From NCBI GenBank assembly GCA_019635875.1, contig JAHBYP010000002.1:868001-932000 (forward strand): a stretch of DNA of 64,000 nucleotides. The letters run 5' to 3'. A program made the translations under genes and the position numbers. The stretch's first letter is position 1. Each line of letters opens with the position of its first letter. The notes under the pieces were generated by a model that ran no database searches, was not told where the DNA came from, and saw only the letters and a list, made by a program, of their open reading frames with translations. The stretch comes from Alphaproteobacteria bacterium (GTDB taxonomy: Bacteria; Pseudomonadota; Alphaproteobacteria; Reyranellales; Reyranellaceae). This document shows positions 9,430 through 64,000 of this stretch, in pieces.

Positions 9430-9498
9430 CTGTCATCCCGAGCGCAGCGAGGGATCCAGGCAGCTACCCTGGATCCCTCGCTGCGCTCGGGATGACAG
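9430..9498. repeat. Palindromic intergenic repeat (type A), copy 1
   Basis: A near-perfect inverted repeat whose outer arms begin CTGTCATCCCGAGCGCAGCG and end with the complement, around a short variable centre. It lies between two convergent genes and almost touches the stop codon of the racemase gene. The same arm recurs at 18644, 37171, 39578, 56926 (half), 59058, 61279 and 62111. Confidence 0.92.
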
Positions 9499-37170: not shown

Positions 37171-37236
37171 CTGTCATCCCGAGCGCAAGGAATCCAGGGA
37201 AGCAGCCTGGATCCCTCGCTGCGCTCGGGATGACAG
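37171..37236. repeat. Palindromic intergenic repeat (type A), copy 3
   Basis: Begins CTGTCATCCCGAGCGCAAGG and ends CTGCGCTCGGGATGACAG. The left arm lacks a CGAG tetranucleotide present in the right arm. It lies between the convergent efflux and exonuclease genes. Confidence 0.9.
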
Positions 37237-59187: not shown

Positions 59188-60213
59188 ATGGAACAGGCTA
59201 TCACGATCGGACTGGACATCGCGAAGAACGTCTTCGAGCTGCATGGCCGCGACGCCAGCGGCAAGGTGGTGTTGCGTCGTCGCCTGAAGCGGGCGCGGAT
59301 GGCGGAGTTCTTCGCCGGGCTGCCGAAGGCGACCATCGGCATGGAGGCGTGCGGCTCGGCGCACCACTGGGGGCGGGTGCTTCAGGGTCTGGGCCACGAG
59401 GTTCGGCTGATGCCGCCGGCCTACGTGAAGCCCTACGTCAAGCGCAACAAGAACGACGGGCGCGACGCTGAGGCGTGCTGCGAGGCGATGAGCCGTCCAG
59501 ACATGCGCTTCGTGCGGCTGAAGACGGTGGAGCAGCAGGCGGCGCTGTCGCTGCATCGCAGCCGCGAGCTGCTGGTGCGCCAGCGCACGCAGACGGCCAA
59601 CGCCCTGCGCGCGCTGCTGGGCGAGTTCGGCATCGTGGCGCCGGTCGGCAAGCGCGGCCTGGATCAGCTGCTGGCGGCGATCGGCGAGGACACGGCAGGG
59701 CTGCCGCGCTCGGCTCTGATGTCTGCGCGCAGCCTCGCGGCCCATCATGCCCAGCTCGAGACGACGATCGAGGAGCTGCAGGCAAGCATCGTGGCTGAAG
59801 CGCGGGCCGACGCCCGGGCGCTGCTGTTGGGGAGCGCGCCCGGGGTCGGCCCGCTCACCGCCCATGCCCTGCTCGCCACCATGCCGGATCCGGCGATGTT
59901 CAAGAGCGGCCGCGACTTCGCCGCCTGGCTCGGCCTGACGCCGCACGACCAGTCGAGCGGCGACAAGCAACGCCTCGGCGCCATCACCAAGCAAGGCGAC
60001 CGCACCCTGCGCCGCCTGCTCGTGCTCGGCGCCACCGCCTGGCTGCGCCACGTCGCCCGCCAGCCCGACAAAGCCTCGCCCTGGCTGCGCCGCCTGATGG
60101 CGCGCCAGCACAAGAAGAAGGTGCTGGCCGTCGCCCAGGCCGCCCGCACCGCCCGCATCCTGTGGGCCATGCTCAGGGACAACCAGCCCTATCGCGCTCC
60201 GCTCGCCGCCTGA
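59188..60213 (+). CDS. IS110 family transposase (DEDD recombinase)
   Basis: A 341-aa transposase, complete. The RuvC-like DEDD residues are D10 (GLDIAK), E53 (GMEACGSAHHWGR), D90 and D93 (KNDGRDAEA). The C-terminal Tnp_20 domain has PGVGPLTAHALLATMPD, DFAAWLGLTP and a candidate nucleophile Ser at 256/257 in DQSSGDKQRLG. ATG at 59188 is preceded by AAAGGGGACC; in-frame upstream codons lie in the element end. All core residues intact, so the element may be active. Confidence 0.93.
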   Translation: MEQAITIGLDIAKNVFELHGRDASGKVVLRRRLKRARMAEFFAGLPKATIGMEACGSAHHWGRVLQGLGHEVRLMPPAYVKPYVKRNKNDGRDAEACCEAMSRPDMRFVRLKTVEQQAALSLHRSRELLVRQRTQTANALRALLGEFGIVAPVGKRGLDQLLAAIGEDTAGLPRSALMSARSLAAHHAQLETTIEELQASIVAEARADARALLLGSAPGVGPLTAHALLATMPDPAMFKSGRDFAAWLGLTPHDQSSGDKQRLGAITKQGDRTLRRLLVLGATAWLRHVARQPDKASPWLRRLMARQHKKKVLAVAQAARTARILWAMLRDNQPYRAPLAA

Positions 60214-61278: not shown

Positions 61279-61346
61279 CTGTCATCCCGAGCGCAGCGAG
61301 GAATCCATGCTGCTGCCTGGATCCCTCGCTGCGCTCGGGATGACAG
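61279..61346. repeat. Type A palindromic repeat forming the end of the IclR gene
   Basis: Begins CTGTCATCCCGAGCGCAGCG and ends CTGCGCTCGGGATGACAG. The IclR-type gene on the minus strand reads into this repeat and uses a TGA inside it as stop, so the repeat supplies its last codons. Confidence 0.9.
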
Positions 61347-62110: not shown

Positions 62111-62180
62111 CCTGTCATCCCGAGCGCAGCGAGGAATCCAGGATGCAGCCTGGATCCCTCGCTGCGCTCGGGATGACAGG
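62111..62180. repeat. Type A palindromic repeat, copy in the divergent IclR/TauD region
   Basis: Begins CCTGTCATCCCGAGCGCAGC and ends GCTGCGCTCGGGATGACAGG. It lies 23 bp upstream of the IclR start, in its putative leader. Confidence 0.9.
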
Positions 62181-63120: not shown

Positions 63121-63202
63121 CTGTCGTCCTGAGCGGAGCGAAGGACCTGGCGGTATTGCGATTGGTCGACTGCGAGATCCTTCGCTTCGCTCAGGATGAC
63201 AG
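63121..63202. repeat. Palindromic intergenic repeat (type B variant)
   Basis: Arms CTGTCGTCCTGAGCGGAGCG and CGCTTCGCTCAGGATGACAG around a longer centre, similar to 33855-33957. It lies between the convergent TauD and hypothetical genes and supplies the stop of the latter. Confidence 0.88.
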
Positions 63203-63493
63203 GGTGCGCTTTCCCAGCATCTCCGTCGCCAGCTGCGTCCACTCCTCCTCGAGTGTGAGCTTGGACACCGGGCGGCCGGCGCGGCGGTACCAGCCGCTGG
63301 CGTTGCTCATGTCGCCTTCCTGGCGATGCAGATGCGCGTGCACCACGTCGCAATCGGCCTCGCCCTCGTGGCCCTGCACGGTCTCGTGCGCCTTGCTCCA
63401 GTCGCCTTGGCGCAGCCACCACAGCGCTTCGAGCGCGGGGCCAAGATCGGTCGGCGCGGACTTGGCGGCCTGGAAGGCTTCGAGTGTCGGCAT
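63191..63493 (-). CDS. Conserved-looking small protein (100 aa) downstream of the UGSC gene
   Basis: A 100-aa helical protein, cytosolic: LEALWWLRQGDWSKAHETVQ and DCDVVHAHLHRQEGDMSNAS are TPR-like helices, then WYRRAGRPVSKLTLEEEWTQ. The ATG at 63493 begins 3 bp after the UGSC gene stop (63497), so it is translated with it. The last codons and stop (CTG TCA TCC TGA) lie inside a palindromic repeat. Function unknown; may serve the selenoprotein. Confidence 0.7.
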   Translation of the reverse strand: MPTLEAFQAAKSAPTDLGPALEALWWLRQGDWSKAHETVQGHEGEADCDVVHAHLHRQEGDMSNASGWYRRAGRPVSKLTLEEEWTQLATEMLGKRTLSS

Positions 63494-63496
63494 GGC

Positions 63497-63997
63497 CTAC
63501 TCCAGCAGGATGGGCAGCGCCTGTCGGTAGGCGACCTCGGCGCGCTCTTTCAGCTCGGGCAAGGTGCAGCTGCCGATCGGGTGCTGCACCGTGAGGAAGG
63601 GATAGTCGGCCAGGCCGAGCACGCGCGCGATGTTGCGCGCCGTGACCTCGAACGGCGTGGTGCACAGCACCACCGCGCGCTTGCCCAGCTGCTCGAAGGT
63701 GATTCCGTCGTGCAGACTGCACGTCGAGCAGGACCCTCAATCGCCCAGGCCGGTGATGAGGAAATCCACCTCCTGCGCGACCGAGGTCAGCGTGTTGCCC
63801 GGCGCCGGCGCGCTGGCGTTCTTCTTCGAGGCCAGCGTGCGCACCGTGCAGCCGTGACGCTGCACGAAGAGCGCGGCGACCTCGTTCAGCATCTCCTCGG
63901 CGTTGAGCTTGCCGTTCTCGAGGATGCCGATGCGCATGCCGTCGATCTTCGCGAGCCTGGGCGCGCGGATCGCCGCGCGCTTGGGCGTGGTCGACAT
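63497..63997 (-). CDS. UGSC-motif selenoprotein (in-frame UGA at 63737-63739 = Sec87)
   Basis: From the ATG at 63997 the frame reads MSTTPKRAAIRAPRLAKIDG, IGILENGKLNAEEML, then FLITGLGD followed by TGA. Reading the TGA as selenocysteine gives U-G-S-C-STCSLHDGITFEQLGK and continues to TAG at 63497 (166 aa). The U-G-S-C motif defines a known (seleno)protein family. The continuation carries AVVLCTTPFEVTARNIARVL and VQHPIGSCTLPELKERAEVA, consistent with a functional protein. A SECIS-like hairpin with an AGUCU loop follows the UGA. Function of the family is unknown; a redox role is inferred. ATG at 63997 may not be the true start as the window ends here. Confidence 0.85.
63705..63727 (-). promoter_or_regulatory. 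Candidate bacterial SECIS hairpin of the UGSC gene
   Basis: Coding-strand sequence after the UGA: nine bases, then UCG-A-CGUGC, loop AGUCU, GCACG-A-CGG. Five perfect pairs cap a bulged A-A and three further pairs (one G-U). The upper stem begins 13 nt and the loop 18 nt after the UGA. The AGUCU loop is close to the GGUCU loop of the E. coli fdhF SECIS bound by SelB. Confidence 0.7.
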
Positions 63998-64000
63998 CGG

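Follow-up and report, generated by a model that had tools for sequence, protein, structure and literature searches.

A UGSC-family selenoprotein of Reyranellaceae, its near-obligate partner and a possible two-subunit, thioredoxin-coupled enzyme

We analyzed a 64,000-nucleotide stretch of a genome from the alphaproteobacterial family Reyranellaceae (contig JAHBYP010000002.1, positions 868,001 to 932,000), hereafter the window, at one end of which a minus-strand open reading frame (ORF) at 63497-63997 is open except for a single in-frame TGA at 63739-63737. This TGA (63737-63739, minus strand) is the U of a U-G-S-C motif in the context VDFLITGLGD-U-GSCSTCSLHDG, where it is read as selenocysteine (Sec; U87 in ORF numbering) and is followed by 79 residues. 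The ORF product matched the Pfam UGSC family, PF24696, with 155.2 bits against a cut-off of 25 (E 2e-45, residues 8-164) and, lacking its first 6 residues, scored 120.8 bits against NCBIfam NF041046, just under the naming cut-off of 125; these were the only Pfam or NCBIfam models matched, and a paralogue from the same genome (L012) reached 141 bits against NF041046. The gene, which covers 63497-64000 within the window and has an N-terminus common to its relatives, probably starts at an ATG at 64015, 15 bases past the window end, from which the protein would begin MQLYSPMSTT; relatives keep MQLY(A/S)P, for example MQLYAPT. Starting there, the protein would be 172 aa long with Sec as residue 93. 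The ORF and the PF24696 match agree with an earlier sequence-only reading of this DNA, which had proposed a U-G-S-C selenoprotein with the TGA at the U and 79 codons after it, and on sequence grounds the element is a genuine member of the UGSC family, which is itself not new. That family (PF24696/NF041046) was drawn from GOS metagenomes in 2008 with a thioredoxin-like fold suggested and without a partner (PMC2398784); our observations agree with it in the U-G-S-C motif, whose first position is Sec in the majority of members and Cys in some others, and add a near-obligate partner, a thioredoxin linkage and a Rossmann-like model.

The 6.2-Mb genome encodes tRNA-Sec (72 bits), adjoining selB (457 bits) and selA (558 bits) genes, and selD (266 bits), so that the selB and selC for which the sequence-only reading had advised a search are both present, with selA and selD in addition. 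All four UGSC paralogues in this genome carry the TGA, and a UGSC gene was found in each of 74 other genomes of the same family (74/74), with exactly one TGA in every match listed; the closest named relatives are from Reyranella. We then scanned more widely with a pattern that omitted the U column and found at least 588 relatives, of which the best 80 loci were analyzed. These spanned Alpha-, Beta-, Gamma- and Deltaproteobacteria, Chloroflexi, Acidobacteria, Acidimicrobiia and Binatia, and within them TGA occupied the Sec site in 81/81 places. Homologues with Cys at this site (CGSC) occur in an alphaproteobacterial genome (L139), on plasmids of Arthrobacter, Embleya and Roseovarius, and on haloarchaeal plasmids of Natrinema, Halalkalicoccus and Halorientalis, as the alignment proposed by the earlier reading had anticipated; that reading had named a lack of Cys homologues or of Sec machinery as what would speak against it, and both the homologues and the machinery are present. 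A search of a viral collection returned no relatives. Among single cases, the exceptional G411 (L138) shows TGC where the Sec codon is expected, with its TGA at another point of the frame, a TGA-type UGSC gene on an Acidovorax sp. T1 plasmid (L176:6929-7219) appears in the annotation as no more than a shortened hypothetical protein, and another on Paracoccus versutus pBEN (L181) is truncated or absent in the annotation used.

The E. coli fdhF-type SECIS has a short apical stem and a small loop about 18 nt from the UGA, all within the coding region. Downstream of the UGSC TGA (T counted as 1), nt 17-21 (CGUGC) pair with nt 27-31 (GCACG) around a loop at nt 22-26 (AGUCU), which places the apical hairpin at 63709-63723 on the minus strand, with the stem at 63723-63719 and 63713-63709, the loop at 63718-63714 and a UGA-to-loop spacing of 18 nt. 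The element thus resembles that of fdhF in its short apical stem, small loop, spacing of about 18 nt and intracoding position, and differs from it in an NGUNU loop and in an apical stem of 5 bp overlapping the S-C-S-x-H-D codons. The sequence-only reading had described this 5-bp stem, its AGUCU loop and the 18-nt distance exactly. All five pairs were complete, at a fixed distance from the UGA, in 98/98 distinct Sec sequences, against a mean of 3.35/5 pairs and a full stem 11% of the time when synonymous codons were shuffled, an excess that is not itself a probability because the 98 sequences are related to one another; given the breadth of phyla, inheritance alone is an unlikely cause of the conservation. 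Two pairs covary (21-27, C-G to G-C; 18-30, G-C to A-U). The loop reads NGUNU in all 98 (AGTNT in 92, TGTAT in 6), and its Ser codon is AGT in 92/92, whereas AGT makes up 18% of downstream Ser codons. Conversely, the NGUNU loop is absent from the 7/7 Cys homologues examined, two of which still form five pairs.

Folding the region, as the earlier reading had recommended, was less informative for this sequence by itself, which folds barely better than its shuffles (z -1.3), while the comparative pairing was complete, and our SECIS verdict consequently rests on the comparison across sequences. Rfam gave no SECIS family match in the region. The modest single-sequence fold bears on the one reading that would dispense with Sec altogether, in which the TGA truly ends translation and the frame beyond it is a pseudogene or open by chance; a single sequence alone could not have excluded this. 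The comparative data have already refuted it, as the in-frame TGA is kept across phyla, hairpin conservation exceeds what codon choice produces, Cys homologues read through the site and the genome holds complete Sec machinery, and we now regard it as having practically no chance of being correct. Judged by these comparisons, recoding of the UGA relies on a SECIS hairpin of the standard bacterial kind, along with SelB and tRNA-Sec.

A 100-aa ORF begins 3 nt after the UGSC stop (63191-63493, minus strand), and the sequence-only reading had taken a small coupled gene to be a companion of UGSC; its product has no Pfam or NCBIfam match, and tblastn against all fetched loci recovered no homologue besides that at its own locus. 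We therefore rejected it as the partner of UGSC, and it probably lies outside the system. Elsewhere the window holds an IS110-family (RNA-guided) transposase at 59188-60213 on the plus strand (322 bits to NF033542) and a REPIN-like repeat of paired inverted CGCTC(A/G)GGATGAC copies about 50-65 nt apart, at 9432-9496, 37173-37234, 61281-61344, 62114-62177 and 63123-63200; the motif has 13 matches in the window against 0.18 expected.

Upstream, and just outside the window, the UGSC gene adjoins a gene for a protein of about 350-357 aa (window-equivalent 64020-65096), whose stop codon lies 4 nt before the UGSC ATG. In this genome all five copies of the partner (5/5) stand beside the four UGSC genes and none occurs elsewhere. 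Across 20 Reyranella-family genomes, 65/66 UGSC genes have a partner gene no more than 300 bp away, and 85/87 partner matches have a UGSC gene within 5 kb; the three exceptions sit on contigs in which the counterpart was not found, and two of them are partial matches. The pairing extends to 76/80 of the wider loci (the best 80 of at least 588), in Proteobacteria, Chloroflexi, Acidobacteria, Acidimicrobiia and Binatia, and to every plasmid locus opened for UGSC (8/8, including three from haloarchaea), with two partner copies in some. A partner gene in Haladaptatus (L187) had no UGSC neighbour within the fetched stretch. The partner is annotated in databases as a hypothetical protein and belongs to no Pfam or NCBIfam family (53 members tested by Pfam, with a single chance match). 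In Variovorax boronicumulans, UGSC and partner form one polypeptide with a clear UGSC match (103 bits), and similar fusions with a weak UGSC match occur in Vibrio europaeus and Sporomusa termitida. The near-universal adjacency or fusion of the two proteins suggests that they work as one enzyme, of which UGSC and the partner would be two subunits. PMC2398784 mentions a fusion of UGSC to a domain called 'Unknown_1', which is possibly the partner. The Vibrio and Sporomusa fusions, both plasmid-borne (L183, L184), have replaced Sec as well as Cys (DMGTS) and adjoin aconitase X and DUF126 genes; having lost both residues, these relatives cannot perform Sec/Cys chemistry and probably represent a non-redox branch.

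The AlphaFold2 model of UGSC (pLDDT 92) has five strands alternating with helices and places Sec after strand 3 (residues 79-85), before the next helix. Its structural matches were Rossmann, flavodoxin and receiver-domain folds; thioredoxins were not among the matches listed, a listing that alone cannot exclude that fold. UGSC is thus predicted to be Rossmann/flavodoxin-like and not obviously of the thioredoxin fold assumed in the literature. The partner model, also at pLDDT 92, had no confident solved counterpart (best VIA Z 4.5), and a PDB sequence search returned no credible relative of UGSC or of the partner. Foldseek placed the partner weakly (E 4e-5, TM about 0.25; VIA Z at most 4.5) near class I fumarases and cyclic amide hydrolases, which we did not accept as a sign of relationship. 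Only C80 and C178 are nearly invariant among its cysteines, and two such residues are too few for a fumarase-type cluster.

In several lineages the gene neighbourhood links the pair to thioredoxin. The Cys three residues after Sec (UxxC; U87 and C90) is invariant in 58 sequences. An Arthrobacter plasmid carries trxB, trxA, partner and UGSC in a row, trxB lies in the UGSC clusters of Roseovarius and of Variovorax SRS16, and TrxB-like CxxC flavoproteins stand beside paralogue 4 of this genome, a Dehalococcoidia copy and the V. boronicumulans fusion. Moreover, the partner of paralogue 3 and its relative in L139 begin with an additional domain that contains CPTC, has no Pfam match and is probably thioredoxin-like. 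Thioredoxin or thioredoxin reductase genes adjoin UGSC in a minority of loci (one TrxB and one TrxA among 80 genome loci), and this adjacency recurs in unrelated phyla. Other neighbours are catabolic (CoA-transferase III, luciferase-like oxidoreductases, SDR, TctC and acyl-CoA dehydrogenase) and are accompanied by LysR/IclR-type regulators and transporters; in the loci opened, they indicated no single substrate. Reyranella relatives hold several diverged UGSC-partner versions per genome, and the four diverged paralogues here, each with its own partner, suggest different substrates.

These features recall D-proline and glycine reductase. The carrier chain of glycine reductase comprises NADPH, thioredoxin reductase and thioredoxin. 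Like PrdB and GrdB, UGSC is a small Sec protein with UxxC after a beta strand and a separate, larger partner, joined in some operons by Trx/TrxR genes; it differs in occurring mostly in aerobes and haloarchaea. In the published model for PrdA/PrdB, the PrdB selenolate attacks substrate held on PrdA, and the selenoether is then resolved by a Cys of PrdB to leave a selenide-sulphide for an electron carrier to reduce (PMC3091704); both PrdA/PrdB and GrdE/GrdB are reduced through a Trx-type or NADH-linked relay (PMC3091704, PMC13188914). Family-level HMM comparison of UGSC with GrdB/PrdB (PF07355, TIGR04483) gave no match, and hhalign gave only a weak one (probability 7-10%, E 0.003-0.005) in which the U columns did not line up, which is why we describe UGSC as working like PrdB/GrdB and do not file it with them. 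Similarly, none of the 53 partner members tested by Pfam matched PrdA/GrdE, and with no confident fold match either, a pyruvoyl-type substrate-binding subunit is unsupported for the partner. By analogy, we hold with moderate confidence that the UGSC pair works like D-proline or glycine reductase. The genome also encodes four GrdB/PrdB-type TGA proteins (L014-L017, at C12:123915, C2:452965, C1:916147 and C5:410783) with a U-P-V-C or U-P-F-C motif followed by a hairpin-like stretch, for which the PDB sequence search likewise gave no credible relative; together with the four UGSC paralogues they make up at least eight predicted selenoproteins.

We somewhat favor the explanation that UGSC provides the small, Sec-bearing half of a catabolic enzyme that has two subunits, is coupled to thioredoxin and has a mechanism like that of D-proline or glycine reductase. 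In such an enzyme the Sec, placed where the third strand ends and the next helix has its N-terminus, would attack as a selenolate a substrate bound by, or between, the UGSC and partner subunits; the Cys three residues on would resolve the adduct, giving a selenenylsulfide for thioredoxin and thioredoxin reductase to reduce. The setting points to the breakdown of organic acids or CoA esters, chiefly in haloarchaea and in bacteria with an aerobic metabolism. The signals for Sec decoding, the near-obligate pairing, the fusions and, in several lineages, the thioredoxin linkage were observed directly in the sequences; the complex, its chemistry and the class of substrate are inferred from them.

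Two other readings draw on much of the same evidence. UGSC could be a stand-alone thioredoxin-fold oxidoreductase with the partner as client or metabolic neighbour, in keeping with its listing among thioredoxin-fold proteins (PMC2398784, PMC13188914), the typical redox motif UxxC and the Trx genes near some loci; the AlphaFold model, however, matches flavodoxin, receiver-domain and Rossmann-like folds, and a subunit accounts better than a client for both the fusions and the near-obligate pairing, so that we consider this unlikely. Slightly less probable again is that UGSC is a peroxidase or repair-type redox protein whose selenolate reduces peroxide or an organic hydroperoxide, the partner being a scaffold: Sec, a resolving Cys and a thioredoxin system are also the pattern of peroxiredoxins, and a reference title records peroxidase activity for GrdB itself, yet the gene context is catabolic, with its LysR/IclR-type regulators and transporters, and four diverged paralogues with a partner each point to different substrates.

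We give about an even chance to UGSC and the partner being the two subunits of an undescribed class of thioredoxin-coupled (seleno)enzyme in Bacteria and haloarchaea, one that would carry out reductions or substitutions in catabolism of a mostly aerobic kind. PMC9402790 puts UGSC at 8.2% of selenoprotein genes, yet without an assigned function. The partner, sometimes fused, and the thioredoxin link turn UGSC into part of a defined candidate complex of two subunits, open to expression and assay, and the Cys forms in Arthrobacter, Variovorax and haloarchaea would allow its chemistry to be studied without selenium machinery.
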